From a bacterium (GTDB lineage: Bacteria > Cyanobacteriota > Vampirovibrionia > Gastranaerophilales > Gastranaerophilaceae): a stretch of DNA of 53,827 nt. Both the position numbers and the translations under genes were made by a program. The notes below the pieces were generated by a model. It saw only the letters and a list, made by a program, of their open reading frames with translations. It had not been told where the DNA came from and did no database searches. Positions 1 to 38,539 of this stretch are shown here, piece after piece. The DNA lies in contig JAGAVG010000010.1 in assembly GCA_017942035.1 (NCBI GenBank), positions 1 through 53,827 of the forward strand, written 5' to 3'. Every line of letters starts with the position of its first letter. The stretch's first letter is position 1.

Positions 1-176
1 ATGTCGGATTGACCTCTGTGTTTCATGTCATTCCGAACTTGTTTCGGAATCTCAGTATCATGAGATGCTGAAACAAGTTCAGCATGACATGTTATCTTTT
101 CAGACTCGCAATGACTATTTTTTATCATTATATCCTCTTTCGAATTTCTTTCTTCCATAATTTCATATTTTAGCAT
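1..176 (-). CDS. prepilin-type protein, N-terminal fragment cut by the left edge
   Basis: The frame opens at ATG 174-176 behind a good ribosome binding site (AAAGGAG at 182-188, 5 nt spacing) and stays open for 58 codons to the window edge. The translated part is not a normal protein. After about 25 residues it reads CHAELVSASHDTEIPKQVR, which is the inverted dispersed repeat at 24-91 read as protein. No prepilin motif is visible because the gene leaves the window. The call rests on analogy: the same leader repeat, ribosome binding site and repeat-derived N-terminus precede the two complete prepilin genes at 6694-7647 and 24250-24984. The identity is therefore inference; the open frame and start signals are seen directly. 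An alternative is a chance open frame within repeats. Confidence 0.5.
   Translation of the reverse strand, partial: MLKYEIMEERNSKEDIMIKNSHCESEKITCHAELVSASHDTEIPKQVRNDMKHRGQSD
24..91. repeat. two facing copies of the ELVSAS-type dispersed inverted repeat
   Basis: A unit of the form CATGTCATTC-cgaac-ttgtttcgGAATCTC at 24-54 is followed by an inverted partner at 61-91 (TGAGATGCTG ... AGCATGACATG). Related copies lie at about 23970-24020, 27712-27742, 27843-27873 and 45586-45612. Each unit is itself a short hairpin (GAACTTGTTTC core). Read in frame on the minus strand it gives HAELVSAS...PKQVRND. Confidence 0.75.
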
Positions 177-216: not shown

Positions 217-383
217 GCATCATTTTTTATATTTTGGTGCATGCAGGCCTGAAATCCAATAAAACATACCCTTTAAAAATTCAAAAAATCATCAAAAAAC
301 GACAATAGACCACTTGAAAATTGGCGGAAAATATTGTATAATAAGGCTATAGAAAACTCGCATCAAAATATAAAATTTGGTGC
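217..383. repeat. prepilin leader repeat, copy 1 (extended homology to 476)
   Basis: A block of 167 bp bounded by two 24-bp imperfect palindromes (217-240 and 360-383; arms GCA-C/T-CA ... TGGTGC). It is repeated at 7691-7856 and, inverted, at 24041-24207. Homology to the third copy continues to about 476, giving 260 bp in both. It lies just upstream of the minus-strand prepilin fragment, as the other two copies lie upstream of their genes. The interval 177-526 holds no other gene. Confidence 0.9.
314..342 (+). promoter_or_regulatory. sigma-70 promoter inside leader repeat copy 1, pointing away from the prepilin gene
   Basis: TTGAAA (314-319), 17-nt spacer, TATAAT (337-342). Both boxes and the spacer length are identical in all three repeat copies. 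Transcription would start near 349 and run almost at once into the palindrome at 360-383 followed by six T (385-390), which looks like an intrinsic terminator. Confidence 0.75.
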
Positions 384-390
384 GTTTTTT
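360..390 (+). terminator. palindrome plus T-run at the outer end of leader repeat copy 1
   Basis: The arms GCATCAAA and TTTGGTGC pair with one G-T wobble and are followed by GTTTTTT. Its position about 40 nt after the embedded promoter suggests a very short transcript or attenuation. It could instead be a protein-binding palindrome, since the other end of the block carries a similar one without a T-run. Confidence 0.5.
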
Positions 391-6693: not shown

Positions 6694-7647
6694 TTATTCG
6701 GAACATTTGTGTTTACCATTCCAAGATAATTTTTCCGGACATTTTAAATAATCCAAATTTTCAAATGATAATACCCATGCGGTTTGACATGCCAGACAGC
6801 GACCAGCTTTGTATGCTTCAAAAGAAAACCAATAATTGCTATATCCTTCGGTACCATAAGGAATTAAAAAGCCCTCTTTTGTCAGAAAAAATTGAAATAT
6901 TCCAGAATGTCCTTTTATTCTAATATCTAAATCTCCGCAGCCGTTATTTTTAGGTAACCAATAGTTACACTCATTAGCGCGATGGTAATATCTAACACGT
7001 ACATCCCCGCCTGCTAACCTTACGTCATGACCTTTGGGAGGTTTATCAAACTTCATATATTTATCGAAGATATTCCAAATGTCATTATTATTGCTAAGTC
7101 CCCAGTTGTCAGGAGTTCCTAATTCAGCAACGGCAAAATTAGTAGCTTGGGATAGGACGCTGTACGTTCTTTTTAGTTCAGTAATAATCCTTCGTGTCTT
7201 GTGATTTTCAATTAATGTTGGCAAAGTCATCGCCGCAACAACCCCGATTATCCCGAGAGTGATTAAGACTTCTGCCAAGGTGAAGGCACATTTTTTTCTC
7301 CCTCGCCCCTTGTGGGAGAGCGAAATTGCGTACGGACGTAGCAAAGCGAGTCCGAATAGCGGAACAGCGAGGGCGGATAGTCCCAAAGGACTAAAAGCCC
7401 GAGTCTGTGGAGCGTGGAGCAATTTCAAGACGGGGTCGGGGTGAGGGGTTATTGTTGCGTTAGCGGTGGTAGGATTTTTCTTCGTCATTGCGAGCGAACG
7501 GAGTGAGCGTGGCAATCCAGTTATTAATGGTAGACTAAAGTCTACCCTACTATTTACTCCCTCGCCCCTTGTGGGAGAGGGTCGGGGTGAGGGGTTAACT
7601 AGCTTGCCTTCTTGAACTCTTGTCCTCTGTTCTTCTAATATATTCAT
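6694..7647 (-). CDS. prepilin-type protein with a long repeat-derived N-terminal extension
   Basis: This is a secreted, inner-membrane-anchored pilin or pseudopilin (type IV pilus/type II secretion family). The prepilin signal AFTLAEVLITLGIIGVVAAM is complete, with Glu at +5 and Ala at -1 rather than the usual Gly, followed by a helix and a roughly 160-residue globular domain with several cysteines. Unusually, more than 120 residues precede the signal (typical leaders are 5-25). They are dispersed repeats read as protein: NPSPRPSPTRGEG, SRVDFSLP and SLRSLAMTK from units at 7556-7596, 7529-7550 and 7483-7520, then an expanded unit at 7300-7451. ATG 7645-7647 has a strong AAAGGAGG. A later internal start cannot be excluded. 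The leader repeat lies 44 bp upstream. Which pilus or pseudopilus it joins is unknown. Confidence 0.85.
   Translation of the reverse strand: MNILEEQRTRVQEGKLVNPSPRPSPTRGEGVNSRVDFSLPLITGLPRSLRSLAMTKKNPTTANATITPHPDPVLKLLHAPQTRAFSPLGLSALAVPLFGLALLRPYAISLSHKGRGRKKCAFTLAEVLITLGIIGVVAAMTLPTLIENHKTRRIITELKRTYSVLSQATNFAVAELGTPDNWGLSNNNDIWNIFDKYMKFDKPPKGHDVRLAGGDVRVRYYHRANECNYWLPKNNGCGDLDIRIKGHSGIFQFFLTKEGFLIPYGTEGYSNYWFSFEAYKAGRCLACQTAWVLSFENLDYLKCPEKLSWNGKHKCSE
7299..7451. repeat. expanded GCCCCTTGTGGGAGAG repeat inside the prepilin leader region
   Basis: The left half CCCTCGCCCCTTGTGGGAGAG (7302-7322) and the right half GGTCGGGGTGAGGGGTT (7435-7451) of a unit that is intact at 7556-7596 are here separated by about 110 bp of different sequence. 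A second split copy is at 37577-37681. Confidence 0.65.
7483..7596. repeat. REP-like unit, GTAGAC palindrome and GCCCCTTGTGGG unit in tandem
   Basis: The REP-like unit (7483-7520, GTCATTGCGAGCG ... GGCAATCCAG), the 22-bp palindrome GGTAGACTAAAGTCTACC plus CTAC (7529-7550) and an intact GCCCCTTGTGGGAGAGG unit (7556-7596) lie in tandem inside the coding frame of the prepilin gene. Confidence 0.75.
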
Positions 7648-7690: not shown

Positions 7691-7856
7691 GCACCATAAT
7701 TTATATTTTGGTGCGAGTTGGCCTGAAATCCACTAAAACATACCTTCTTAAAATTCAAAAAATTCACAAAAACGACAAATGACCACTTGAAAATTGGTGG
7801 AAAATATTGTATAATAAGGCTATAAAAAACTCGCACCAAAATATAAAATTTGGTGC
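7691..7856. repeat. prepilin leader repeat, copy 2
   Basis: 166 bp with the same organisation as copies 1 and 3. The end palindromes are at 7691-7714 and 7833-7856; the latter has perfect 8-bp arms, GCACCAAA and TTTGGTGC. The terminal 28 bp form inverted repeats that differ at only about two positions. It lacks the 93-bp outer extension shared by copies 1 and 3. It ends 44 bp upstream of the prepilin start at 7647. Confidence 0.9.
7787..7815 (+). promoter_or_regulatory. sigma-70 promoter inside leader repeat copy 2, antisense to the prepilin gene
   Basis: TTGAAA (7787-7792), 17-nt spacer, TATAAT (7810-7815), followed by the palindrome 7833-7856 and ATTTTTTG. It is conserved in all three copies. 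Confidence 0.75.
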
Positions 7857-7915
7857 ATTTTTTGTGCCTCAAATTCGTCTTGTAATGACAAAAAACTGTT
7901 CCGTTTTATAATAGG

Positions 7916-22855: not shown

Positions 22856-22914
22856 GTAAAATTTTTTATATATCATATAATTAAATAAAATATTTATATG
22901 GAGAGCTTTATTTG

Positions 22915-23919
22915 ATGAAAAGTGACATTGAAAAATACGGATTAATGACAGAAGAAATCTCTGATGAGAATGTAGATTTCCATAAACTTCAGATGAATAG
23001 TGATGAGGACGAGGATGTTTTAATATCAGTGGAAGATCCTAAAGTTCAGGAAAATTTATCTACTGTCAATTCTGATGACAGTGTAAAAATTTATCTTCAG
23101 CAAATAGGTAAAATCCCATTGTTATCCGCCGAACAGGAGATTGAAATTGCAAAAAAAATATATGAAACGCAGGATGTTTTTTCTAAAAATCTTCTTGTAA
23201 ATGCAAATTTAAGACTTGTTGTAAGTATTGCTAAAAAATATATAGGCCGCGGACTTTCTTTTCTTGATTTGATTCAGGAAGGAAACATGGGCTTGATGAA
23301 AGCTGCGAGCCGTTTTGATTACACAAAAGGTTATAAGTTTTCGACTTACGCAACCTGGTGGATTCAGCAGTCAATAACAAGAGCAATTGCTGATAAGGCA
23401 AGGATTATAAGACTTCCGATCCACATGATTGAATCTCTGGGAAAAATCAGAAAAGCTACAATAGATTTGACAACAGAGCTTGGCCGAACTCCTACAAAGC
23501 AAGAAATTGCCTACCGTCTGGGAGTTTCGGTTAACAAAATTTCTTCAATAATTAAATCTGCACAATCTACGATTAGTATGGAAACTCCGGCAACTTCAAG
23601 TGAGGAATCTTCAAAAATTGCGGATTTTATTGTCGATGAAGACTCTATTGCTCCGGAAGCAAGAGTTTCACAGGAAAACTTGTTTGATGATATAAGAAAT
23701 ATGCTTAATCAACTTTCGCCCAAGGAAAGAGATGTGCTGATTTTGCGCTATGGACTTGACAGTAACGGAACGAAGAAAACTCTTGATGATATCGGTTCTC
23801 AATACGGTGTGTCGAGAGAGAGAATCCGACAGATTGAAAACCGTGCGATATCAAAGTTGAAAAAACTTTGTAAAAATAAAAAGCTTGCATTTGGTTTGAA
23901 AAATTATTTTGGCGGATGA
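22915..23919 (+). CDS. RNA polymerase sigma factor, RpoD/SigA type
   Basis: A group 1 or 2 sigma-70 factor that recognises -10/-35 promoters like those seen across the window. The 334 residues contain region 1.2 (DSVKIYLQQIGKIPLLSAEQE), region 2 with the -10-reading YATWWIQQSITRAI, region 3 and region 4.2 with the -35-reading helix (LDDIGSQYGVSRERIRQIE). Region 1.1 and the non-conserved insertion of large RpoD proteins are absent; an acidic 60-residue tail stands in for them. This is typical of cyanobacterial-type primary or alternative SigA. ATG 22915 has GGAGAG upstream; a TTG one codon earlier is less likely. Whether it is the housekeeping factor depends on other copies outside the window. 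Confidence 0.9.
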   Translation: MKSDIEKYGLMTEEISDENVDFHKLQMNSDEDEDVLISVEDPKVQENLSTVNSDDSVKIYLQQIGKIPLLSAEQEIEIAKKIYETQDVFSKNLLVNANLRLVVSIAKKYIGRGLSFLDLIQEGNMGLMKAASRFDYTKGYKFSTYATWWIQQSITRAIADKARIIRLPIHMIESLGKIRKATIDLTTELGRTPTKQEIAYRLGVSVNKISSIIKSAQSTISMETPATSSEESSKIADFIVDEDSIAPEARVSQENLFDDIRNMLNQLSPKERDVLILRYGLDSNGTKKTLDDIGSQYGVSRERIRQIENRAISKLKKLCKNKKLAFGLKNYFGG

Positions 23920-24040: not shown

Positions 24041-24207
24041 GCACCAAATTTTATATTTTGATGCGAGTTTTTTATAGCCTTATTATACAATATTTTCCAC
24101 CAATTTTCAAGTGGTCTTTTGTCGTTTTTTGATGATTTTTCGGATTTTGAAATGGTATGTTTTAGTAAGTTTCAGGCCTACTCGCACCAAAATATAAATT
24201 ATGGTGC
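24041..24207. repeat. prepilin leader repeat, copy 3
   Basis: 167 bp with end palindromes at 24041-24064 and 24184-24207. With its outer extension it matches copy 1 over 260 bp (23948-24207 against 217-476, inverted). It ends 42 bp before the prepilin ATG at 24250. The short downstream sequence ATGAATTTA is also shared with copy 2. Confidence 0.9.
24082..24110 (-). promoter_or_regulatory. sigma-70 promoter inside leader repeat copy 3, pointing away from the prepilin gene
   Basis: On the minus strand: TTGAAA (24105-24110), 17-nt spacer, TATAAT (24082-24087). Its transcript would reach the palindrome 24041-24064 and then GTTTTTTGCG. Confidence 0.75.
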
Positions 24208-24249
24208 ATGAATTTAAAGGATAATTTAAGAAAAACGGAGGATAAAAGT

Positions 24250-24984
24250 ATGATAAATAGAGACAAACGAGAAGCAACATGTCATGTTGAACTAGTAAGT
24301 AGTAGGGTAGACTTTAGTCTACCAGAAAAGCTGGATTGCCACGCTTCGCTCGCAATGACGAAAACCGCGTTTACATTAGCGGAGGTTTTGATTACTCTCG
24401 GGATAATCGGTATTGTTGCGGTGATGACATTGCCGGCGTTGATTACTAAGCATCAGAAAAAAGTCGTTGCCACGAGGGTTAAGCAGTTTGCGTCTGTTTG
24501 GCAACAGGCTTACAGGCAGGTTGAATATGAACAAGGAACAGACTTGTTTTGGGGTACTTTAGTTGCAAAAGATCCGGAATCTACATTCGATTTTTACAAT
24601 GAAACTTATGGTAAATATGTTAGAACTATGAAAGTTGAAAAATCGCAGTATGGAATTACAGGTGCACTTCAAAACGGTTCGGGCTTTTATTTTTACAGAA
24701 CAGCAGGGCAACCTGATTTAAGCGGTTGTATATATCTAATTTTTTGTCCGTATTACAAAGATTGCAAGCAATTAGCTGATAACGGACAGTTTGGAGATTC
24801 AGAGACTATTTCTGATGGCAAAAAGACTTTCGGTTTTTGGGCAAATGGTGCTCCACCTACTTATTCTTGGAACGGAACAAGAGAATGGCTGATGCAAAGA
24901 TGCTCTACTTGGCAAAAAGGTTTTTGCACAACACTTATCCGATATGACGGCTGGGAAATCAAGGATGATTATCCCGCTTGGTAA
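24250..24984 (+). CDS. prepilin-type protein with repeat-derived N-terminal leader
   Basis: A pilin-like secreted protein of 244 residues. The prepilin signal is AFTLAEVLITLGIIGIVAVM (Glu at +5, Ala at -1), followed by a helix (KVVATRVKQFASVWQQAY) and a C-terminal globular domain with six or more cysteines (SGCIYLIFCPYYKDC, QRCSTWQKGFC). The roughly 37-residue leader is a mosaic of three dispersed repeats: CHVELVS (ELVSAS type), SRVDFSLP (palindrome 24302-24323) and LDCHASLAMTK (REP-like 24331-24360). ATG 24250 has GGAGG 8 nt upstream; an upstream ATG at 24208 lies at the edge of the leader repeat and lacks one. Internal ATG 24358 could restart just before the signal. Helix and leader block are paralogous to the gene at 6694-7647; the C-terminal domains differ. 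Confidence 0.87.
   Translation: MINRDKREATCHVELVSSRVDFSLPEKLDCHASLAMTKTAFTLAEVLITLGIIGIVAVMTLPALITKHQKKVVATRVKQFASVWQQAYRQVEYEQGTDLFWGTLVAKDPESTFDFYNETYGKYVRTMKVEKSQYGITGALQNGSGFYFYRTAGQPDLSGCIYLIFCPYYKDCKQLADNGQFGDSETISDGKKTFGFWANGAPPTYSWNGTREWLMQRCSTWQKGFCTTLIRYDGWEIKDDYPAW
24302..24360. repeat. GTAGAC palindrome and REP-like unit inside the prepilin coding frame
   Basis: The 22-bp palindrome GTAGGGTAGACTTTAGTC-TACC (24302-24323) is followed by a REP-like unit (24331-24360, CTGGATTGCCACGC ... CGCAATGACG). Both occur elsewhere between genes; here they are translated. Confidence 0.85.
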
Positions 24985-28095: not shown

Positions 28096-28120
28096 TATGC
28101 TATGCTATGCTATGCTGTGC
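28096..28120. repeat. TATGC pentanucleotide tandem repeat upstream of a large unknown gene
   Basis: Four exact TATGC units (28096-28115) and a variant TGTGC (28116-28120), starting 97 nt before the chosen start at 28193. Copy-number change by slippage would alter the leader length. If the ATGs inside the repeat are used, it would also change which of them is in frame. Confidence 0.85.
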
Positions 28121-28192
28121 GGTGAATTGCGTCCTAAAGAAATTGTCCAAGAAATCCGACAAAAGAAACAGAAAGGAAAAATCGGAACACTT

Positions 28193-29947
28193 ATGGGCAT
28201 GTCAGCATCACAAGCAAGATTATTGAGTATAACAGCTCGTTTGACCAACAACGAGTTGAGCTCTCAATTGTTGACAAACAGTAAAGTCCGCCTTGCGTCC
28301 AAATCCGAGGAGGCAAGTGATGAGTACATGAATGCCTTGAGTGCTACAAAATTGACCTATCAATATTATAACGACAACGGTGACGCAATGAATTACAATT
28401 TGACGCCGGCATTAATATATAATTATGAACCGTTGAAGAGCCAGTATTCAATTGTGGATAACAACGGCGTCAACCTTGTTTCTGCTCAAGATGCGAAGAA
28501 TTTTGAAGAGACAAATACTTTACATGATTTTCTAAAAAGATATGTAAATGTTGAAAAGATAGAAGACCCAGACACTGTTAAGGCTCACAATGACTGGGAT
28601 GCAGAGTGTAAACGCTTAAAAGAGGACTATAGAATTGCGCTTGAGGACTGGGAAAAGAATCCTTATGATACCAAGGAAGATGATTCGGTCTATCAAACAC
28701 TTGTTAATATAGTAGGTTCAAGTGAAGATCCTTCTTCATGTGTATATTGTTATCAGAGAGCATTAAAAGGAACTTCCGGCTGTTATTTACACTTTTTGAA
28801 TCATATACTTGATTTTGATGGTACATGGCCTAGGCAATGGGGAAAATATACTGCAAGTAATGGTGTAGAATTTACTCCTGGAGATGCTGACTATGGTGGA
28901 ATGGGAGCTGTTCCGGAATTAACTGCGGTTTCAGATGCAATTAATGAAACTGATAAAAACGGAAATTACGCAAGATTATGTGACGGAGATGATAAATATG
29001 TTCCGGAATATAAAAGCAATGGAGAAAGAGATACAGATAAATATAATTTAATTCAGGCAAAAATAGATGCCGGTGAAGTTCCGGATGAAATAGATATTTT
29101 AATGAGTGATTATATTTATGATGCGGATACAAATTCTGTAACCGGAATAAAATCTTTGAAGCAAAAAACTATAGATATGTATTACTTAATACAAAAACTC
29201 AAAGAACTTGAAAAGATTAACAATAAGCCTGGTGAAATACTTGGAGATAGTGATAGAAAAGCTTTCCAGAAAATTAAGACTTCTATGGTAGATTTGCTAA
29301 TTAACTTTACGGAAGGTGATTTGCGTAATATATCTACTGTTGAACTTCCTAAACCGGAGTTAAAACTGCCAAAAGAGCCAAAAATAACAACAATTACCCA
29401 AATAGACGACAAGGACAAAGCCCAGTGGTACACGAATTTGTGGTACATGATGAATGGTTCGGAGAGCGCAAATGTTGTTACTGACGACAAAGACGAAACA
29501 ACTAACGGAAAGTTTGTAGTAAACGGTGCGGAGAAAAAGAACCCAAAAACCGCTAATTACAAGGTTATAGACGATATTACCGCAAAAGATGCAAGCTGGC
29601 TTCAATATGCGTTAGAAAATGGTATTGTTTCACTGCGTCAGGCAAAATATTTTAACCCGTCGGAAGATTCCGGAAAAGTTCCTGAGTTAGAATCAACGGG
29701 TTATATGTGGAAATCTGTCGGCTTCAAAAATGCGATTGATATAAAAACAGTTGAAGATACCGAAAAAATTACGCGTGCACAGGCAAAGTACGAAAAAACA
29801 ACACGCGAAATTGAGGCCAAAGATAACGAATATGATATTCAGTTGAAAAATTTGGACACAATTCATAATGCTCTGCAAACAGAATACGAATCCGTAAAAA
29901 ACGTAATATCCAAAAATGTTGAAAGAAGCTTTAAAGCGTTTAGTTAG
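28193..29947 (+). CDS. large protein of unknown function with conserved MSASQARLLSITARL N-terminus
   Basis: No family with known function is recognised. The 584-residue product starts MGMSASQARLLSITARL and continues with a heptad-like helical region (LTNNELSSQLLTNSKVRLAS) reminiscent of the N-termini of flagellin- and hook-type secreted proteins, but no flagellar genes are present. The central region is acidic with a small cysteine cluster (SCVYCYQRALKGTSGC), and the last 60 residues form a coiled coil (AQAKYEKTTREIEAKDNEYD). No signal peptide or membrane segment. ATG 28193 has CGGAA 6 nt upstream; the frame is open to 28097 within the tandem repeat, but that start has no binding site. Probably an abundant structural or exported protein; this is inference. 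Confidence 0.75.
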   Translation: MGMSASQARLLSITARLTNNELSSQLLTNSKVRLASKSEEASDEYMNALSATKLTYQYYNDNGDAMNYNLTPALIYNYEPLKSQYSIVDNNGVNLVSAQDAKNFEETNTLHDFLKRYVNVEKIEDPDTVKAHNDWDAECKRLKEDYRIALEDWEKNPYDTKEDDSVYQTLVNIVGSSEDPSSCVYCYQRALKGTSGCYLHFLNHILDFDGTWPRQWGKYTASNGVEFTPGDADYGGMGAVPELTAVSDAINETDKNGNYARLCDGDDKYVPEYKSNGERDTDKYNLIQAKIDAGEVPDEIDILMSDYIYDADTNSVTGIKSLKQKTIDMYYLIQKLKELEKINNKPGEILGDSDRKAFQKIKTSMVDLLINFTEGDLRNISTVELPKPELKLPKEPKITTITQIDDKDKAQWYTNLWYMMNGSESANVVTDDKDETTNGKFVVNGAEKKNPKTANYKVIDDITAKDASWLQYALENGIVSLRQAKYFNPSEDSGKVPELESTGYMWKSVGFKNAIDIKTVEDTEKITRAQAKYEKTTREIEAKDNEYDIQLKNLDTIHNALQTEYESVKNVISKNVERSFKAFS

Positions 29948-30029
29948 TATTTAGTGTCTTATGTTCCATATCACTTTCTTTGCTGTTAAAACATGTTACA
30001 AATTATTAAAACTATTTTAAAAGCAAGTG

Positions 30030-30058
30030 TTGACACTGATTTTTGTTTGATTTACGAT
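30030..30058 (+). promoter_or_regulatory. main promoter of the S10 ribosomal operon
   Basis: Consensus TTGACA (30030-30035), 17-nt spacer, TACGAT (30053-30058). Transcription would start near 30065 and leave a leader of about 87 nt before rpsJ. It is the only perfect -35 hexamer noted in the window, as expected for a highly expressed operon. Confidence 0.8.
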
Positions 30059-30151
30059 TAGTACACTGGGATTATACGGGTGTATAGTCTCAAAGGCCGA
30101 AAATATAATAGTTTGGCTTAATGTGTACAGTAAAAAGAAAAAGGAATAGAA

Positions 30152-30463
30152 ATGGCAACTAAACAAAGAATCAGAGTTTGTTTGAAAGCGTATGATCACA
30201 AATTGATTGACGTATCATCAGACAAAATCGTAGAAACAGCAAAAAGAACAGACGCTAAAGTAGCTGGCCCGATTCCTTTACCTACAAAAAGACGTATTTA
30301 TTGTGTATTGCGTTCCCCACACGTAGACAAAAAATCTCGTGAACACTTTGAGTTAAGAACTCATAAGCGCATTATCGATATTTACGACGCAACTCAACAG
30401 ACAACTGAAGAGTTGACAAGATTGGATCTACCTGCCGGGGTAGATATTGAAGTTAAACTTTAG
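30152..30463 (+). CDS. rpsJ: 30S ribosomal protein S10
   Basis: S10 sits in the 30S head, and in other bacteria also joins NusB in antitermination. The 103 residues match the family ([52 protein letters not shown]). It is first gene of a 15-gene operon in the classical S10-spc order. AAAGGAA precedes the ATG. No tuf or fus gene lies upstream, so the str operon is not joined here. A 265-nt spacer follows before rplC. Confidence 0.98.
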
Positions 30464-30728
30464 TACAAAAAATGGCCTGCTGGGTTGCCAGTATAGAGGC
30501 CGGTACTAAAAAACTTTTTGAAAATCTAATAGCATTATGCATAATAATGTGAACTACAACGCTCAAAGATGAAAATCAAAGAGCGGGGCAATCCGAAAGG
30601 TTTGCCGGGGTGTAACTCCCCATAGGTAAAGTACAAAGCAAGCAAAGTAGCGCTCGCAAGAGAAGATGCAGACCCGAAACGGGGCGGAATTTGTCCGCAC
30701 CAAGTAGGGCGAGCAGGAAAGGTAGAAT
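30464..30728 (+). ncRNA. structured GC-rich spacer between rpsJ and rplC, possible cis-regulatory RNA
   Basis: This 265-nt interval is much longer and more GC-rich than the other operon spacers. It holds a chain of hairpins: GGCAA/TTGCC (30587-30591 with 30602-30606), GGGG-TGTAACT-CCCC (30607-30621), CCCG-AAA-CGGG (30673-30683) and GCGGA/TCCGC (30684-30698). It contains part of a REP-like unit (GCGGGGCAATCC). None is followed by a T-run, so they are not plain terminators. An autogenous leader or a repeat insertion are both possible. A minus-strand frame across it is not convincing as a gene. Confidence 0.45.
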
Positions 30729-31364
30729 ATGACACTAGGTGTAATAGGAAAAAAACTAGGAATGACTCAAGTCTTTGATGAACAAGGCTTAGCTATCCCT
30801 GTAACTGTTGTAAAAGTTGACGAAATGGTTGTTACTCAGGTAAAAACTGTTGAAACTGACGGTTATAACGCAATTCAGGTCGGCACAATTGCTGCTAAAG
30901 CTAAACACTTGACAAATGCAGAACTTGGTCACTTCAAGAAAAATGGTTTGAATAACTACAGACACTTACAAGAATTCAGAGTTGAAAACCCTCAAGATTA
31001 CAAAGTTGGGGACAAAATCGAACTTTCAGTTCTTGATAATGTTGAAAAAGTAGACGTAACCGGAAAATCAATCGGTAAAGGATTCCAAGGTACTGTAAAA
31101 AGATGGAATTTTGGCCGCGGACCAATGGGTCACGGTTCTAAAAACCACAGAGAACCTGGTTCAATCGGTGCAGGTACAACTCCTTCACGTGTTATCAAAG
31201 GTAAAAGAATGGCCGGTAACATGGGTAACGAAAGAGTTACAATCACAAAATTGAAATTGGTTAAAGTTGATTCAGCTAACAGCTTAGTCTTAATCAAAGG
31301 TTCAGTTCCGGGTCCTGAAGGAAAATTGGTTACAATTGTTCCTACAAGAACTAAATGGAACTAA
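30729..31364 (+). CDS. rplC: 50S ribosomal protein L3
   Basis: L3 is an early assembly protein that reaches towards the peptidyl-transferase centre of the 50S subunit. The 211 residues carry the family blocks GVIGKKLGMTQVFDEQG at the N-terminus and the extended loop WNFGRGPMGHGSKNHREPGS with GTTPSRVIKGKRMAG. AGGAAAGG lies 6 nt before ATG 30729. Preceded by the structured spacer and followed by a 120-nt spacer with its own hairpin (CTTACC at about 31428 with GGTAAG at about 31446). Confidence 0.98.
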   Translation: MTLGVIGKKLGMTQVFDEQGLAIPVTVVKVDEMVVTQVKTVETDGYNAIQVGTIAAKAKHLTNAELGHFKKNGLNNYRHLQEFRVENPQDYKVGDKIELSVLDNVEKVDVTGKSIGKGFQGTVKRWNFGRGPMGHGSKNHREPGSIGAGTTPSRVIKGKRMAGNMGNERVTITKLKLVKVDSANSLVLIKGSVPGPEGKLVTIVPTRTKWN

Positions 31365-31484
31365 TTTAAGCGGAAATCCGCAAACAAAATAAACAGAAAA
31401 GTTTTTAAAATCCTGACTTACCATATAAAACCGGATAAAGGAAAGGGGTAAGCAGTAAAAGCCAAAAAATAAAGGAAAATTAAA

Positions 31485-32111
31485 ATGTCAAAAGAATTAC
31501 TAAACCCAAATGGTGAAAAAGTCGGCGAAATCACTTTAGAAAAAAGTGTTTTCGGTGTTGAACCAAATATGCATGTAATGCATCAGGCATTAAGAAGACA
31601 ATTAAATAACGCAAGACAAGGTTCAGCTTGTGCAAAAACAAGAGCTGAAGTGTCTGGCGGCGGTAAAAAACCTTGGAAACAAAAAGGTACTGGCCGCGCT
31701 AGAGCAGGTTCCTTGAGATCCCCTCTATTCGCAGGCGGTGGTGTTGTTTTCGGGCCAAAACCGAGAAGCTATGCTTTCAATATGCCTCAAAAAGCAAGAC
31801 AATTAGCTTTGAGATCAGCTTTGTCTGCAAGAGAAAGCCAAATGATTGTAGTAAAAGATTTCTCTACAATTACGGAGCCTAAAACAAAATTGATGGCAGC
31901 ATCTCTTAAAGCTTTGAAAATATCAGGAAAAGTCTTGATTATTGCAGATACAAAAGCTGCTGAAAACAATTATTTGGAATTAGCAGCAAGAAATATTCCA
32001 TCAATAAAAATTATTTTACCTTCAAACTTGAATGTAAAAGATTTGTTGGAAGCAGATAACGTAGTGATTACTGAAGCAGCAGTTAGATTTATAACTGAAA
32101 AATTGAGCTAA
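31485..32111 (+). CDS. rplD: 50S ribosomal protein L4
   Basis: L4 lines the peptide exit tunnel and, in some bacteria, represses its own operon by binding the S10 leader. The 208 residues contain the tunnel loop region ARQGSACAKTRAEVSGGGKKPW followed by KGTGRARAGSLRSPLFAGGG, and the C-terminal NVKDLLEADNVVIT. Length and order are standard. It lies 25 nt before rplW. Whether L4 binds the unusual spacer upstream of rplC is an open question raised by the layout. Confidence 0.98.
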   Translation: MSKELLNPNGEKVGEITLEKSVFGVEPNMHVMHQALRRQLNNARQGSACAKTRAEVSGGGKKPWKQKGTGRARAGSLRSPLFAGGGVVFGPKPRSYAFNMPQKARQLALRSALSARESQMIVVKDFSTITEPKTKLMAASLKALKISGKVLIIADTKAAENNYLELAARNIPSIKIILPSNLNVKDLLEADNVVITEAAVRFITEKLS

Positions 32112-32136
32112 TCGAAAACAGAAAAGGAAATTTGAA

Positions 32137-32442
32137 ATGAGTGAAAGAACAAATAAAGAAAAGTTATTCGATTTGATTAAAAAGCCTATAATTACTGAAA
32201 AATCAGTAGGCGCTACAACTCTTGGCAAATATACATTTGAAGTATCAAAAGATGCTACAAAAACAGAAATTGCCAAAGCAATCGAACTAGCTTTCCCTGG
32301 AAGAAAAGTAACAAAAGTAAACACAGTATATATGCCATCTCACGAAAAGAGAATGGGATATAAATTCGGTAGAACAGATTCTTCTAAAAAAGCAATCGTA
32401 ACTATCGAAGGTGACCCGATTGAAGAATTAATCGGTGCTTAG
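32137..32442 (+). CDS. rplW: 50S ribosomal protein L23
   Basis: L23 sits beside the exit tunnel and docks trigger factor, SRP and the translocon. The 101 residues show the family start LIKKPIITEKSVGATTLGKY and the loop KVTKVNTVYMPSHEKRMGYK. AAAAGGAAA precedes ATG 32137. It is followed by a 146-nt spacer that carries a REP-like direct repeat. Confidence 0.97.
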   Translation: MSERTNKEKLFDLIKKPIITEKSVGATTLGKYTFEVSKDATKTEIAKAIELAFPGRKVTKVNTVYMPSHEKRMGYKFGRTDSSKKAIVTIEGDPIEELIGA

Positions 32443-32588
32443 CGCGAAGTGAGCGTAAAGCAATAATCCAAAAGCGAAGTGAGCGTAGGGCGAAGTCCAG
32501 CTCTCACAAAGTAAAAAAGACAAGTACAGGTCGAGGCAATAGGGAAAGGTTCCCGAACAAGTAAGACCAAAAGCCAAAGGAGAAAAAA
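32443..32588. repeat. REP-like direct repeat and hairpin in the rplW-rplB spacer
   Basis: GCGAAGTGAGCGTA occurs at 32444-32457 and 32474-32487 (30-bp period), each followed by sequence related to the CAATCC end of the REP-like family. A hairpin GGGAA-AGG-TTCCC (32542-32554) follows. A dispersed intergenic repeat therefore appears to have inserted inside an essential operon without breaking it. Confidence 0.6.
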
Positions 32589-33416
32589 ATGGCAACACGT
32601 AAAATTAATCCGACTTCCCCTGGACAAAGAGGGATGGTCAAAAGTGATTATCAAGAAATAACAACATCTACTCCTGAAAAATCATTGTTAAAATCAATGA
32701 AAAAAACAGCAGGTAGAAATAATACAGGTAGAATTACATGTCGTCACAAAGGCGGCGGTGTAAAAAAAGCATACCGTGTAGTTGACTTTAAAAGAGAAAA
32801 ATTCGGCGTACCGGCAACAGTAAAAACTATCGAGTACGATCCGAACAGAAACGTAAGAATTTCACTTGTATTCTATGCAGATGGTGAAAAAAGATATATC
32901 TTAACTCCGGAAGGATTGAATGTAGGTGACGTAATCGTTTCAGGCCCAGAAGCAACAATCCAGACAGGAAACGCAATTCCGTTGGAATTGATTCCGTTAG
33001 GTACAATGGTTCATAACATTGAACTTATCGCAGGCAGAGGCGGAATTTTAGTTAGAGCAGCAGGTAACGCAGCTCAGGTAATGGCTAAAGAAGGCAACTA
33101 CGTAACAATAAAACTTCCTTCAGGCGAAATGAGAATGGTAAGAAAAGAATGTATGGCAACAATCGGTGTATTGGGTAATGCTGAATTCAAAAACTTATCA
33201 ATCGGTAAAGCCGGAAGAAAACGTTATATGGGTATCAGACCAACAGTCCGCGGTGTTACAATGAACCCTTGCGATCACCCTCACGGTGGTGGTGAAGGTA
33301 AAACCGGTCCTGGCGGACACCCGAAAACACCTTGGGGCAAACCTGCTCTTGGCTATAAGACAAGAAAGAAAGGTAAAGCGTCTGATAAACTTATCGTAAG
33401 AAGACGTAAAAAATAA
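32589..33416 (+). CDS. rplB: 50S ribosomal protein L2
   Basis: L2 supports the peptidyl-transferase centre and the inter-subunit bridge B7b. The 275 residues match the family, with [20 protein letters not shown], the central RNA-binding SH3-like region and the invariant C-terminal stretch [17 protein letters not shown], which includes the functionally important histidine. AAAGGAG lies 7 nt before ATG 32589. The spacer that follows has two perfect hairpins. Confidence 0.98.
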
Positions 33417-33423
33417 TTAAAGT

Positions 33424-33467
33424 CCGCGGGATTCATCATCCCGCGGCAGCCTCCCGAAAAGTTCGGG
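33424..33467 (+). promoter_or_regulatory. two consecutive hairpins between rplB and rpsS
   Basis: A perfect 9-bp stem CCGCGGGAT (33424-33432) with ATCCCGCGG (33438-33446), then CCCGAA (33453-33458) with TTCGGG (33462-33467). Neither is followed by a T-run. They may protect or process the mRNA, or mark the remnant of a repeat. Confidence 0.55.
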
Positions 33468-33514
33468 TGATAAATAAAATACAAACTACCAATTAAAATA
33501 AGAAAGGTAACAAA

Positions 33515-33805
33515 ATGGCACGTTCATTAAAAAAAGGTCCTTATGTAGAAGATGCTCTACGTAAAAAAATAGACAAAATGAATGCAAACTCTGAGAAAAA
33601 AGTTGTAAAAACTTGGTCAAGAGATTCAATGATTACACCGCAAGAACCTAATATGTTAGGTCACACAATCGCTGTATACAACGGGAAAACTCACGTTCCT
33701 GTATATGTTACAGAACAAATGATCGGACATAAGTTAGGTGAGTTTGCACCAACAAGAATGTACAAAGGACACGCTGGTTCAGATAAAACAGCAAAAAGAA
33801 AATAA
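33515..33805 (+). CDS. rpsS: 30S ribosomal protein S19
   Basis: S19 lies in the 30S head near the A-site tRNA and contacts S13. The 96 residues contain the family blocks [24 protein letters not shown] and [25 protein letters not shown] precedes ATG 33515. Order and length are standard. Confidence 0.98.
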
Positions 33806-33883
33806 CTCAATCTCGGCTTAAAGCCATAGAAATGAGTAAAAACAAAACAATCGAAATTACTTAAATTATAAGGAAAAGTAAAA

Positions 33884-34219
33884 ATGGAAGCTAAAGCAAG
33901 ACAAACAGATATAAAAATGACAGCAAGAAAGTTACGTCGTGTAATAAACGAAGTAAGAGGAAAAGCTGTTATTGAAGCTCAGCAAATGTTGCGTTTTATG
34001 CCTTATTTTGCAGCAAGAGTGGTTGAAAAAAACTTGAAGGCTGCGGTTGCAAATGCTCAGGAACAGTTTGGTGCAACGCCAAATACATTGAAAATTTCTG
34101 AAATATTTGCCGATGAAAGCGTTACATACAAAAGAGCAAGAACAAGAGCACAAGGTCGTATGTACTCTAGAATGAAACGCACATCACACCTTACATTAAA
34201 AGTTAGTGATCATAACTAA
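33884..34219 (+). CDS. rplV: 50S ribosomal protein L22
   Basis: L22 binds all domains of 23S rRNA and its long hairpin lines the exit tunnel, where changes give macrolide resistance. The 111 residues show [17 protein letters not shown], the conserved helix, and the hairpin segment [29 protein letters not shown] precedes the ATG. It lies 29 nt before rpsC. Confidence 0.98.
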
Positions 34220-34248
34220 GTGTAGTAGAAAATAAAAAGGTAATAAAA

Positions 34249-34980
34249 ATGGGACAAAAAACACATCCAACCGGATTCAGAGTAGGAATAATCAAAAGCT
34301 GGACAAGCACATGGTTTGCCAAGGTAAAAGATTATGCTGAATTCGTTGCAGAAGACGCAAAAATCAGAAAATTTGTTAAGAAAAAATTGTATGCTGCCGG
34401 AATTTCAAAAATTCTTATCGCAAGAAAATCTCAAAGCACAACAATTACAGTAGTAGCTGCAAAACCTGGTATTGTAGTTGGCCGCGGCGGACAGGGTATT
34501 GATGAATTGAAACAGGCAGTTTCAAAACATATCGGCAAGCCGGTAATAATCAATGTAGTTGAAGTTGCAAGAATTGATGCTGATGCACAGCTTGTATCAG
34601 AAGCAATCGCTCAACAATTAGAAAAACGTGTAGCATTCAGAAGAGCTATGAAACAAGCAATGCAGCGTACAATGAGAGCAGGCGCTCAAGGTATTAAAGT
34701 TATGGTATCAGGTCGTTTAGGCGGAGCTGAAATCGCTCGTTCTGAATGGGCTAAAGAAGGAAGAATTCCTCTTCAGACATTAAGAGCAGACGTTGATTAC
34801 GGTTTTGCAGAAGCTGATACTATCATGGGTAAAATCGGCGTAAAAGTTTGGATTTTCAAAGGAACTTTGATGCCGGGTGAAAAAGCTGATCAAAATATTA
34901 AATCAAAAAATGAAAAAAATTCTTCAGAAAAAGGACAAAGACGCCCTAGAAGAAGCAGAGCAGTTGAAACTGCTGAATAA
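34249..34980 (+). CDS. rpsC: 30S ribosomal protein S3
   Basis: S3 forms part of the mRNA entry channel and its helicase activity. The 243 residues have the start [17 protein letters not shown], a KH domain with [11 protein letters not shown] (about 82-92), and the C-terminal domain with [16 protein letters not shown] and [16 protein letters not shown] basic, Lys/Arg-rich tail of about 30 residues extends beyond the folded part. It lies 55 nt before rplP. Confidence 0.98.
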
Positions 34981-35035
34981 TGCGAGACCTCGTGTTATTA
35001 ATTAAGGTATAGAAAATTAACAGGAGCAAATAATA

Positions 35036-35452
35036 ATGTTACAGCCTAAAAAAACTAAATACCGCAAAATGATGAAAGGTAACATGAAAGGTCATGAGAC
35101 AAGAGGATGTAATTTCGAATTCGGAAGATACGCACTTCAAGCTCTTGAACCTGGATGGATTACCAGCAGACAAATCGAGGCTGCACGTCGTGCAATGACT
35201 CGTGAAATCAAACGTGGCGGTAACGTTTGGATTAAAATATTCCCTGATAAACCAATTACAGCAAAACCGGCTGAAACTCGTATGGGATCCGGTAAAGGTA
35301 ATTTGGAATACTGGGTAGCAGTAGTAAAACCAAACAGAATACTTTTCGAACTTGATTACTTTGATAGATCAATTGCAAGACACGCTCTTGAATTGGCTGC
35401 TCAAAAATTGCCTATTAAAGTTAAAGTAATTGAAAAAGAAGAAACTAAATAA
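35036..35452 (+). CDS. rplP: 50S ribosomal protein L16
   Basis: L16 stabilises A-site tRNA binding in the 50S subunit. The 138 residues contain [51 protein letters not shown] and [18 protein letters not shown], all family hallmarks. CAGGAG lies before ATG 35036. It is 11 nt before rpmC. Confidence 0.98.
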
Positions 35453-35463
35453 GGAAATATAAA

Positions 35464-35676
35464 ATGAAATTAAGTGAAATGCGAGAAAAAACAGTTGAAG
35501 AACTTCAAAGCGCAATCGAAGATTGGAAAAAAGATTTGTTTACATACAAAATGCAGCTTTCCACTCATAAATTAGAAAACACTTCATTGATTTCTAAAAC
35601 AAAAGCTTTGATAGCACAAGCAAAAACTGTTATAACTGAAAAGACAGCTAACGCTGCGGAGGTAACAAATGCCTAA
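35464..35676 (+). CDS. rpmC: 50S ribosomal protein L29
   Basis: L29 is a small two-helix protein near the exit tunnel that helps bind trigger factor and SRP. The 70 residues show MREKTVEELQSAIEDWKKDL and the second helix SKTKALIAQAKTVITEK. The connecting segment (TYKMQLSTHKLENTSL) is rather divergent. The end overlaps rpsQ by 8 nt, implying coupling; GCGGAGG inside rpmC serves rpsQ. Confidence 0.95.
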   Translation: MKLSEMREKTVEELQSAIEDWKKDLFTYKMQLSTHKLENTSLISKTKALIAQAKTVITEKTANAAEVTNA

Positions 35677-35914
35677 GAAAGAAAAACAAGGAATTGTAAT
35701 CAGTAACAAAATGGACAAAACAGTTGTAGTAAAAGTAGCTGATTATGAGCCACATCCAAAATACAAAAAAATTATTGAATCAAACAAAAACTACAAAGCA
35801 CATGATGAAAACAATGTATGCAATGAAGGCGATATCGTAAGAATCGTTGAATCAAGACCTATTTCAGGCAGCAAACGCTGGAAAGTTGCAGAAGTTGTAG
35901 AACAGGCTAGATAG
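35669..35914 (+). CDS. rpsQ: 30S ribosomal protein S17
   Basis: S17 is a primary 16S rRNA binder of OB-fold type. The 81 residues contain KQGIVISNKMDKTVVVKV, the loop HPKYKKIIESNKNYKAHDE, and VRIVESRPISGSKRWKVAEV. Standard length. It starts within the end of rpmC. Confidence 0.97.
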   Translation: MPKKEKQGIVISNKMDKTVVVKVADYEPHPKYKKIIESNKNYKAHDENNVCNEGDIVRIVESRPISGSKRWKVAEVVEQAR

Positions 35915-35962
35915 TTGGATCAATAATTTATAAAGCAGAAGATAAATTAAAAGGATAAAAAA

Positions 35963-36331
35963 ATGATACAACAAGAAACCAGATTAGAAGTAGCAGATAA
36001 TACGGGAGCAAAAGAATTGCTTTGCATCCGCGTTATGGGAAGCTCAAATAAGAAATTTGCCAGCGTAGGTGATGAAATCGTTGCTACAGTAAAAGACGCG
36101 ACTCCAAACATGGCGGTTAAAAAATCAGAAGTTGTAAAAGCTGTTGTAGTAAGAACAAAAGCTGATATCAAACGTGCAGACGGATCAGTTATCAGATTTG
36201 ACGAAAACGCAGCAGTAATTATCAACAAAGATGGCAACCCTAGAGGAACCCGTGTATTTGGACCTGTTGCACGTGAACTTAGAGACAAAGGATACATGAA
36301 GATTATATCACTTGCTCCTGAGGTAATATAA
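35963..36331 (+). CDS. rplN: 50S ribosomal protein L14
   Basis: L14 lies at the subunit interface and is the binding site of the silencing factor RsfS. The 122 residues begin [20 protein letters not shown] and contain [20 protein letters not shown] and [20 protein letters not shown]. Exactly the family length. A 66-nt spacer with a hairpin follows. Confidence 0.98.
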
Positions 36332-36346
36332 GAAATTACGACAGAT

Positions 36347-36378
36347 GTACGCCCTCTGAATCATTAGAGGATCCGTAC
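36347..36378 (+). promoter_or_regulatory. hairpin between rplN and rplX
   Basis: GTACG (36347-36351) pairs with CGTAC (36374-36378) and CCTCT (36353-36357 region) with AGAGG (36366-36370). No T-run follows, so it is not a terminator. It is one of several structured spacers in this operon. Confidence 0.4.
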
Positions 36379-36397
36379 GAAAGATGGAGAAACAAAA

Positions 36398-36736
36398 ATG
36401 ACAGATAAGAAAAAAAGCTTGCATGTAAAAAGCGGTGACAGAGTTATCGTTACAGCAGGCAAAGATAAAGGAAAAATCGGTAACGTAAAAAAAGCTGTTC
36501 CTTCAGAAGGTAAAGTATACGTAGAAGGAGCAAACATGGTTACTAAGGCTCAAAAACCTCAACCGATGGCAGGTATTCAGGGCGGACTTATCAAAGTTGA
36601 AGCAGCGTTGGATTCTTCAAAAGTAATGGTAGTTTGTCCGGCTTGCGAAAAACCGACAAGGATCAAACATGAAGTCGTTGATGGCAAAAAAGTACGTGTT
36701 TGTAAAAAATGTGGTGAACAGATAGACGCTAAATAA
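36398..36736 (+). CDS. rplX: 50S ribosomal protein L24
   Basis: L24 initiates 50S assembly. The 112 residues comprise the KOW domain (KSGDRVIVTAGKDKGKIGNV) and a C-terminal extension with CPACEKPTRIKHEV and VRVCKKCGEQ. The four cysteines make a zinc ribbon, as in many anaerobic and Gram-positive L24 proteins. ATG 36398 follows a GATGGAG. Confidence 0.97.
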   Translation: MTDKKKSLHVKSGDRVIVTAGKDKGKIGNVKKAVPSEGKVYVEGANMVTKAQKPQPMAGIQGGLIKVEAALDSSKVMVVCPACEKPTRIKHEVVDGKKVRVCKKCGEQIDAK

Positions 36737-36766
36737 TTTAGCCTCTAAAGTTAAGGAAAAAGAAAA

Positions 36767-37324
36767 ATGACAAAGACTAAGAATTTAAAAGATACATACT
36801 TAGAAGATGTAGTACCTGCTTTGAAAGAAAAATACGGGTACAAAAATATCCACCAGATTCCGAAACTTCACAAAATAGTTTTGAATATGGGTGTAGGTGA
36901 AGCATCTCACAGCTCAAAAGTAGCAGAAACAATTGAAGGTCAGTTGACAAAAATTGCCGGTCAAAAATGTGTAATAACAAAGGCTAAAAAATCAATTGCA
37001 TCATACAAATTGAGAGAAGGAATGCCTGTTGGTGCAATGGCAACATTGCGCGGTGACAGAATGTATGATTTCCTTCAGAAATTAATCTGCGTAGTTCTTC
37101 CGAGAATTCGTGACTTCCGCGGAATCAGCCCGAAATCATTCGACGGCCGTGGAAACTACACATTAGGTTTGAAAGAACAAGCCTTGTTCCCGGAAATCAC
37201 TTTTGAAGAAGTTGATTTGGTAAAAGGTATGAACATTTCAATAATTACGACTGCTGAAACAGATGATGAAGCAAGAGATTTGTTGAAGTTTTTGGGAATG
37301 CCTTTTAAAGGAATGAATAAGTAA
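36767..37324 (+). CDS. rplE: 50S ribosomal protein L5
   Basis: L5 binds 5S rRNA and contacts P-site tRNA. The 185 residues contain [48 protein letters not shown] and [19 protein letters not shown], all diagnostic. AAGGAAAAAG precedes ATG 36767. Confidence 0.98.
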
Positions 37325-37356
37325 TATAATAATAAAAAACATAAAAGGAGAAATTC

Positions 37357-37563
37357 ATGGCTAAGAAAGCGATGATGAACAAAGAAGAAAAAAGAAGAAA
37401 ACTTGCAGCTGCCGGTAAATACCCATCTGTAAGACTTCATAACAGATGCAGCATATGCGGACGTCCACATGGATTCCATAGAGACTTCGGCCTTTGCAGA
37501 ATTTGTTTAAGAAAAATGGCTCACGAAGGCCTTCTTCCTGGCGTAACTAAAGCTAGTTGGTAA
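37357..37563 (+). CDS. rpsN: 30S ribosomal protein S14, zinc type
   Basis: S14 folds late into the 30S head. The 68-residue product is the short zinc-binding form, with C31, C34, C47 and C50 in [20 protein letters not shown] and the C-terminus [20 protein letters not shown] lies 5 nt before the ATG. It is the last gene of this operon: the usual followers rpsH, rplF, rplR and rpsE are absent, and a repeat, a terminator and unrelated regulators come next. Confidence 0.97.
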
Positions 37564-37576
37564 AATTTGAATATTA

Positions 37577-37681
37577 TCCCTCGCCCCTTGTGGAGCAAAG
37601 GGAACTGGCGCAACGTAGTGAGCCTTGTGACCCTGCTTCCCGAAGCGTAGCTGAGTGGTGAGAGGGCAGGGTGAGGGGTGC
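37577..37681. repeat. split GCCCCTTGTGG repeat after rpsN
   Basis: The left half CCTCGCCCCTTGTGG begins at about 37580 and the right half GAGGGCAGGGTGAGGGG ends at about 37679, separated by about 65 bp of GC-rich sequence. This parallels the expanded copy at 7299-7451. Confidence 0.6.
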
Positions 37682-37720
37682 AAAGTTAAGTTTTGTACGC
37701 AAAACTCACAGGAATAAACA

Positions 37721-37750
37721 AAAAAGACCTCTTTTAAGAGGTCTTTTTTA
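37721..37750. terminator. terminator at the end of the ribosomal operon
   Basis: Stem GACCTCTT-TT-AAGAGGTC flanked by A5 and T6, so it is active in both directions. It ends the ribosomal operon, and on the other strand the XRE gene that stops at 37777. Confidence 0.9.
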
Positions 37751-37776
37751 ATTGTCAAATCTACCCTGCAAGCTTT

Positions 37777-38103
37777 TTAATTAATAAATTTTGAAATATC
37801 TTTAATAAAATTTAAGATGAATTTGAGTGTTTTTTCATCAAGCTTGTTTATTTCTTTGATAATGGCTTTTTCAATACTATTTTTAGTTTCAATTTCCTCA
37901 AAGTCGAAAAGTTCATAATAATTGATATTCAATTTTTCGGAGATTTTTTCTAAGGTTTCGAAAGAAGTCGCCCTTTGCCCAATTTCTATCATACCAATAG
38001 AACCGGTTTCAAGCTCAAGCAATTCCGCAAATTTTTCCTGAGTAAGTCCTCTTTCTTTTCTTAAATCTTTAAGTTTTTTACCAAATAGTATTTTTAAGCT
38101 CAT
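37777..38103 (-). CDS. XRE-family helix-turn-helix regulator (first of two)
   Basis: A DNA-binding repressor-type protein of 108 residues. The helix-turn-helix (about 6-60) reads GKKLKDLRKERGLTQEKFAE, then LETGSIGMIEIGQRATSFET and LEKISEKLNINYYELF. The C-terminal 45 residues are a helical dimerisation tail ending LKFILNFIKDISKFI. It is divergent from a small LuxR-like gene; the 145-bp gap holds two copies of TACAAAAnGTAG, 50 bp apart, which are candidate operators. It has no ribosome binding site. Role not known; a lysogeny- or stress-type switch is possible. Confidence 0.85.
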   Translation of the reverse strand: MSLKILFGKKLKDLRKERGLTQEKFAELLELETGSIGMIEIGQRATSFETLEKISEKLNINYYELFDFEEIETKNSIEKAIIKEINKLDEKTLKFILNFIKDISKFIN

Positions 38104-38150
38104 TGTTATAAATTACATCTAATCATATTGTTCTTCAATCGACATATAGA

Positions 38151-38212
38151 TACAAAATGTAGCATGTAGTTATAAAAATGGAATTATTATTAACTAAAAA
38201 TACAAAAAGTAG
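38151..38212. promoter_or_regulatory. paired operator-like sites between the divergent regulators
   Basis: TACAAAATGTAG (38151-38162) and TACAAAAAGTAG (38201-38212) differ at one base and are exactly 50 bp apart, about five helical turns. The first contains the palindrome TACAAAATGTA. The spacing would place two bound dimers on the same DNA face. Confidence 0.5.
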
Positions 38213-38248
38213 TTTATACTAATAGATGGAAATAACATCGGAGGAATT

Positions 38249-38539
38249 ATGCAAAACATTGATTTGAAATTTGATCAAAAAAAGCATGAGCTTTTGAAGC
38301 GAAGCTTTGATCCAAGATTTGAATATGTAATGTGCAGTGGAATTTTAGATTCTCTTGTTGCAGGCAAAACTTATCGTGAAATTGCGCGCGCTCATTATTT
38401 GTTCAGTTTGAATAAAGTAATCTATAGAGCTAGAAAAATGCGAGAAAAAACTGCACTGCATAATAGACGCCAGCTTGCATATTTTGCAGTTGTAAACGGA
38501 CTTGTGGACTTAGACACTATTTTTGACGAGTGTATCTAG
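38249..38539 (+). CDS. small LuxR-like helix-turn-helix protein (first of two)
   Basis: A 96-residue protein whose second half matches the layout of a LuxR/GerE DNA-binding domain: a short helix, AGKTYREIARAHYLFSLNKV as scaffold and recognition helices, then the typical ending RRQLAYFAVVNGLVD. There is no receiver or ligand domain, so it would be a stand-alone binding module. Strong ribosome binding site (GGAGGAA, 5 nt before ATG 38249). The last 30 bp overlap the end of the convergent XRE gene at 38510. Divergent from the first XRE gene. The recognition helix is atypical, so the call is moderate. Confidence 0.72.
   Translation: MQNIDLKFDQKKHELLKRSFDPRFEYVMCSGILDSLVAGKTYREIARAHYLFSLNKVIYRARKMREKTALHNRRQLAYFAVVNGLVDLDTIFDECI

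Follow-up and report, generated by a model that had tools for sequence, protein, structure and literature searches.

The question raised by this locus is why a consensus promoter standing beside the start of a prepilin gene should point away from that gene and run into a palindrome that resembles a transcription terminator. The window, by which we mean the whole stretch of DNA that was analysed (53,827 nucleotides, contig C39 of an assembly of 1.99 Mb in 84 contigs), harbors three copies of this arrangement. All orientations given here were read from the assembled contigs of this single assembly. The parts of the three copies are listed below, where OFF designates a promoter directed away from the gene that it would control.

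217..240, plus strand: copy 1, gene-side arm, resembling a core site, GCATCATTTTTTATATTTTGGTGC
314..342, plus strand: copy 1, promoter TTGAAA-N17-TATAAT in OFF orientation (-35 box 314-319, -10 box 337-342), matching 11/12 of the consensus
360..383, plus strand: copy 1, distal (T-side) inverted arm, which is also the terminator stem-loop
385..390, plus strand: copy 1, run of six T outside the arm, completing the OFF-state terminator
3..176, minus strand: copy 1, controlled gene with leader peptide MLKYEIMEERNSKED..., of which the 5' portion is present, the rest being lost at the contig start
7691..7714, plus strand: copy 2, gene-side arm, GCACCATAATTTATATTTTGGTGC
7787..7815, plus strand: copy 2, promoter in OFF orientation (-35 box 7787-7792, -10 box 7810-7815)
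7833..7856, plus strand: copy 2, T-side arm and terminator stem-loop, GCACCAAAATATAAAATTTGGTGC
7858..7863, plus strand: copy 2, run of six T
6694..7647, minus strand: copy 2, controlled prepilin gene, 317 aa (PF07963, E=1.3e-5)
24184..24207, minus strand: copy 3, gene-side arm
24082..24110, minus strand: copy 3, promoter in OFF orientation (-35 box 24105-24110, -10 box 24082-24087)
24041..24064, minus strand: copy 3, T-side arm and terminator stem-loop
24034..24039, minus strand: copy 3, run of six T
24250..24984, plus strand: copy 3, controlled prepilin gene (ATG at 24250 with GGAG upstream; the mechanical ORF starts at 24208)

In all three copies the prepilin gene lies on the opposite side of the promoter from the palindrome and its T run, the gene of copy 1 being cut. 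The leader encoded by this truncated gene is of the same type as in complete prepilin genes. For copy 2, the PF07963 match places the N_methyl motif at residues 117-141, preceded by a long leader. The body of the copy 3 prepilin matches DUF6613 and, though the motif FTLAEVLITLGIIG is visible in the protein, a profile search yielded no PF07963 match for it. The three promoters described in the first-pass annotation are all found at these positions, with identical boxes and an identical 17-nt spacing; the sole difference in the spacers is a single base, copy 1 having GGCGG where copies 2 and 3 have GGTGG. The palindromes at 360-383, 7833-7856 and 24041-24064 are each followed by six T, as had also been described, and score as terminator-like, with 1-2 such sites found versus 0.1-0.2 expected in shuffled sequences. 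Elsewhere in the window, the 3' end of a gene at 22912-23919, which reads by eye as a sigma-70-family factor, faces the T-run side of copy 3, and positions 28097-38539 hold mostly short plus-strand ORFs in a run that, from the ORF list, looks like a mobile element or prophage.

An RNA started at these promoters would be short and consist mostly of one hairpin, as had been predicted; the computed product is about 43 nt long, with a mean of -14 kcal/mol. The first-pass annotation had gone on to propose selection for this transcript, or for the act of transcribing outward beside the prepilin start. Read in this manner, the block would be a conserved small-RNA gene encoding a hairpin of about 40 nt, or a promoter whose outward firing influences the divergent prepilin gene, and the combination of a consensus promoter, a terminator-like site and a hairpin of about -14 kcal/mol agrees with it. 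An Rfam search of the window, however, gave 0 matches at the gathering score. The weight of this reading is best judged against the features that the earlier description lacked, namely that an inverted counterpart of the palindrome stands between promoter and gene, that the block recurs genome-wide and that some of its copies are flipped.

The genome-wide search used a 21-mer core of the block, which occurs 112 times when as many as 3 mismatches are allowed, far above chance, with 100 or more perfect occurrences, while the reversed control gave 0 occurrences; the stretches around these copies and around the recombinases were then analysed. Aligned, the copies define a segment of 159 bp that is bounded by a pair of inverted 24-bp arms and contains a perfect TTGAAA-N17-TATAAT promoter, the interior measuring 111 bp in 84 of 89 copies. 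Each arm is palindromic over 9+6+9 bp and has the form GCACCAnnn-TTTATA-TTTTGGTGC, in which 9-bp half-sites surround a 6-bp centre and TTTATA-TTTTGGTGC, i.e. the centre plus the inner half, is common to both arms; the consensus gene-side arm is GCACCATAATTTATATTTTGGTGC and the distal arm is its inverted partner GCACCAAATTTTATATTTTGGTGC. Judged by their sequence, the arms resemble tyrosine-recombinase core sites, which are defined by inverted 9-13-bp half-sites around a shared centre of 6-8 bp. The T run follows the distal arm in 93 of the 97 copies with a readable right flank. Beyond it the aligned flanks are unrelated, and beyond the gene-side arm a leader with a Shine-Dalgarno sequence is shared. 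TTGAAA is present in 102/102 copies inspected, with a spacing of 17 in 101 of them and 16 in one, and since this box lies outside the search core its conservation is independent of the search; TATAAT, also present in 102/102, lies inside the core. The -35 box is thus 100% conserved beside a first spacer half (9 nt) that is 74% conserved, the interior upstream of the promoter standing at 90%, which indicates that the promoter is maintained specifically and bears out the earlier impression that it is singled out for conservation.

The orientation of the promoter was then assessed for 102 unique copies. Complete OFF copies number 83, all with both flanks readable and with the promoter turned from the gene and aimed at an intrinsic terminator; 15 further copies are truncated but OFF-compatible, and in 4 it is the gene-proximal end of the block that adjoins the T-run flank. 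The promoter lies within the segment in 102/102 copies, and only in the flipped, or ON, form does it face the gene. The best outward promoter scores 11/12 in 78/78 OFF copies, and the best gene-directed candidates in OFF copies score 8-10 and share no motif. Both orientations are nevertheless present in this one assembly. The copy at C77:56979 (L098) is a complete ON form, in which the T-run flank precedes the inverted block and the promoter faces a prepilin gene of 279 aa. A separate search for gene-side ON junctions recovered this copy plus C1:9673 and C27:8890 (L256, L257): in C1 the whole promoter faces a complete 248-aa prepilin gene, and in C27 an ON junction stands in front of a complete 303-aa prepilin gene. 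A T-side ON junction is found at the end of contig C47. Contigs C29 and C82 end in fold-backs, perfect for 90 and 113 bp, a structure that would follow if both junctions, or both orientations, were represented among the reads. Altogether, 3-6 of about 112 switches show ON junctions in the assembly. In the C1 and C27 arms the T-proximal inner half is joined to the gene-side outer half TTATGGTGC, a hybrid structure that locates the crossover at the centre of the arm, where site-specific recombination would put it. The gene-side outer half of L098, GCACCAAAT, has no counterpart among the OFF gene-side arms; simple inversion would not give rise to it, and presumed variation at that locus is the one explanation that we can offer. 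The C1 and C27 ON prepilins are close paralogues, being 75% identical to each other versus about 25% for most pairs.

Repeats can be misjoined and inversion is deduced here from one assembly, so it has to be considered whether the ON junctions are chimaeras assembled through a 112-copy repeat, all copies being in reality fixed OFF. Many contigs do end at copies (of the 104 copies listed, 38 have a contig end no more than 400 bp away), and two of the three ON genes, those of C1 and C27, sit at contig ends. Against this, crossing one 24-bp arm, well inside a single read, suffices to establish a junction; the C77 copy is intact in the middle of its contig with both recombinant junctions present; the hybrid arms of C1 and C27 fit site-specific exchange; and the genes behind the switches are largely intact (66 of 69). 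We therefore judge misassembly to be a very unlikely source of the flipped copies.

Inverting the OFF copies in silico places the prepilin start codon 73-79 nt after the predicted transcription start at 68/68 loci. The constancy of this ON leader, the second inverted arm and the flipped copies are all left unexplained by a small-RNA gene or by outward transcription, a reading that was dropped in favor of inversion once copies with the promoter facing the gene turned up, and to which we now attach almost no weight. With the promoter lying between inverted arms and the block flipped at C77, C1 and C27, the selection that the first-pass annotation had invoked finds no support: a promoter that drives the prepilin gene once flipped accounts better for the conservation, and the outward hairpin RNA is probably a by-product of the OFF state.

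It is therefore very probable, on the sequence evidence, that the block is an invertible promoter (inverton), i.e. that phase-variable promoter inversion has been multiplied over a divergent prepilin repertoire. The copies, their arms, the OFF and ON forms and the recombinant junctions are all present in the sequence itself. The mechanism that we propose starts from a tyrosine recombinase that would exchange strands at the arm centres, flipping the 159-bp segment with its sigma-70 promoter. In the OFF state the promoter would fire away from the prepilin gene and its transcript would end after about 43 nt at the terminator made up of the distal arm and the six T outside it. In the ON state transcription would cross the gene-side arm, which lacks a T run, and continue into the prepilin gene, giving a leader of about 76 nt. 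With about 112 dispersed copies serving mostly different prepilins, the cells of a clone would then express different small subsets of the pilin/pseudopilin repertoire.

The association of the block with prepilin genes is close. A prepilin start adjoins the block in 31/31 of the best copies with enough flank and, overall, in 67 of about 72 copies, the exceptions resolving as OFF, ON or contig-end cases. Matches to N_methyl (PF07963) above the cut-off number 112 in this genome versus 25 and 16 in two genomes of the same genus. Of the 111 prepilins listed, a block lies no more than 900 bp upstream of 61 and is absent upstream of 26; for the other 24 the upstream region is truncated by a contig end or unknown. 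The switch is thus not placed on every prepilin. The prepilins that lack a block include those at G000:C40 (13492, 47672, 51809, 60478), C72:1977, C17:21037 and others, and some of those in C40 are long (>700 aa) and have the start FTLAEMMVVMLILSIVMAAFAP in common. The prepilins that share the block are near-identical over their first 22 mature residues (median 95%) and have bodies with a median pairwise identity of 25%, and this combination of a conserved start and divergent bodies is, at the sequence level, the pattern of a variable repertoire. Complete frames are found in 66 of 69 'silent' genes, which are consequently not decaying and are probably used. The leaders that precede the FTLAEV motif are long and mosaic (24250-24410 and 7230-7647 in the window, and many other loci) and carry translated dispersed repeats in frame, such as SSRVDFSLPEKLDCHASLAMTK, NPSPQPSPTRGEGV and CHAELVSASHDTEIPKQVRND.

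A repeat with terminal inverted repeats in about 112 copies, apparently confined to one species, is also what a MITE-like or Correia-like mobile element carrying a promoter by chance would look like. The copies, however, are not scattered but keep a constant spacing to the start codons of prepilin genes; conservation extends beyond the gene-side arm into the leader; informal inspection of the aligned flanks revealed no visible target-site duplication; and the recombinant arms of C1 and C27 point to inversion and not to transposition. A mobile element of this kind was rejected because the copies are tied to prepilin starts with the flanking leader conserved, and its probability appears very small.

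If the block is an invertible promoter, a recombinase must act on it, and candidates were sought with profile searches of the genome, which returned five matches to PF00589 and six to PF00239; among the recombinases encoded there are also XerC/XerD-like, phage-type and serine enzymes. The best candidate for the invertase is, by analogy with relatives, a putative 181-aa tyrosine recombinase at C69:88163 (PF00589, E=1.7e-27). The residues R41, K65, H129, R132, H155 and Y164 (Arg-Lys-His-Arg-His-Tyr) are invariant in 10/10 of its homologues. Its family is patchy and multi-copy across the bacterial family, and its scores against named NCBIfam families fall below cut-off (48 bits versus 222 for PRK09871, of the FimB/FimE type, and 98 versus 220 for XerA_Arch). 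At homologue loci in relatives, inverted repeats of at least 17 bp, 60-450 bp apart, were found at 9/25 loci versus 0/19 controls (Fisher p=0.003); the segments span about 125-330 bp, and about 8 of the 25 loci have them directly beside the recombinase, with one more about 1.1 kb away. The likely invertons in these related genomes (L185, L186, L187, L190, L191, L193, L197, L201, L205) stand at surface-polysaccharide, restriction-modification/defence and surface-protein genes; neighbors at homologue loci include a UDP-galactopyranose mutase, NeuB, an asparagine-synthase-like protein, an EcoRI-type methylase and a helicase/PLD protein.

The C69:88163 gene itself has no inverted arms next to it in this genome, so its action in trans is argued by analogy and the XerC/XerD-like pair stays a rival. 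Inversion would then be real but carried out by that pair, or by another recombinase, instead of the 181-aa protein. Two XerC/XerD-like proteins are encoded, the 9+6+9-bp arms have Xer-like geometry, and the XerC of Ureaplasma binds phase-variable inverted repeats and has been linked to inversion at the mba locus (PMC3599477). The homologues of the 181-aa protein, on the other hand, adjoin invertons of similar size in relatives, and we consider the assignment to another recombinase rather unlikely. We infer that flipping is ongoing, that the C69:88163 recombinase acts in trans and that ON genes are transcribed. The fuller model, in which a single tyrosine invertase would serve in trans more than 100 interchangeable switches, mostly OFF, with few pilins displayed per cell, is put forward tentatively, its probability falling somewhat short of even on the sequence data. 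Under this model the centre common to all sites may also allow exchange from one locus to another, by which promoters, leaders and pieces of the chromosome would be reshuffled.

The nearest precedents are the mpl genes of Mycoplasma penetrans and the Mpi system of Bacteroides fragilis. Multiple promoter inversions have been described for the mpl (P35) lipoprotein genes (Horino et al. 2003, 2009, as cited in PMC8593674 and PMC3599477), which, like the prepilins, are paralogous surface-protein genes with inverting promoters and for which, in these citing accounts, a single tyrosine recombinase is reported. The present system differs in that its targets are prepilins, in an unrelated lineage, and in that its distal arm also serves as the OFF-state terminator. 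The mpl genes are said to number a few dozen, as against the approximately 112 blocks found here. In E. coli, the fimS promoter segment lies between inverted repeats, is flipped by the short, catalytic-domain-only tyrosine recombinases FimB and FimE and controls pili. It is, however, a single locus for chaperone-usher pili, in contrast to about 112 type IV-like prepilin loci and a distinct, Xer-like recombinase family here. In B. fragilis, one master invertase, Mpi, controls at least thirteen invertible regions according to the account cited in PMC5903667; the likeness consists in dispersed invertible regions for surface structures under one master invertase, which in the present case is inferred. 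Mpi is a serine recombinase and its regions include seven polysaccharide loci, whereas the sites described here have tyrosine-recombinase geometry, prepilin targets and a far higher copy number. Invertons catalogued with PhaseFinder and PhaseFinderDC (Jiang et al. 2019; PMC11892184) are short segments bounded by 10-40-nt inverted repeats; they lie near cell-surface genes, and a link to tyrosine recombinases is frequent (PMC11892184). The block has this anatomy, its 24-bp arms falling within that range, and stands mostly on one gene family; groups of homologous invertons had 2-72 members across a community (PMC11892184), versus about 112 in one 2-Mb genome here. What is new is thus the scale (about 112 copies of one switch), the prepilin target, the lineage and the arrangement of arm and terminator. 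The gene content of the assembly suggests a gut member of the Gastranaerophilales, which are relatives of the cyanobacteria that do not photosynthesize, and a limited literature search found no report on phase variation in this group. If the reading is correct, this would be, to our knowledge, the largest single-family set of invertible promoters in one genome, and about 112 switches would provide a reduced genome of 2 Mb with a pilin-based system of antigenic or adhesive diversity. As the state of each switch can be read from ordinary metagenomic reads, the proposal lends itself to a direct test.

The distribution of the switch was assessed across several phylogenetic levels. The core motif is absent from the same-genus genomes G001 and G002, and 287 other genomes of the family contain isolated near-matches only (2 mismatches), indicating that the exact switch is not conserved across species. 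Over all the searches, which covered 39 close relatives, 288 genomes of the family, GTDB contigs and IMG/VR, the motif is absent but for isolated near-matches and one likely chance match, in an Oscillospiraceae MAG (L180). Upstream of the prepilins of G001 and G002 there are no meaningful inverted arms, and no shared inverton was seen in the few prepilin loci sampled from G009, G015, G022 and G043. In G015, TTTTACGGGTTGCCCCCCCCCCCC, a poly-C tract, is common to 3 of the 7 sampled prepilin upstream regions (among loci L229-L253), which suggests that in this relative the same gene family may be subject to phase variation by a different mechanism, slipped-strand mispairing.
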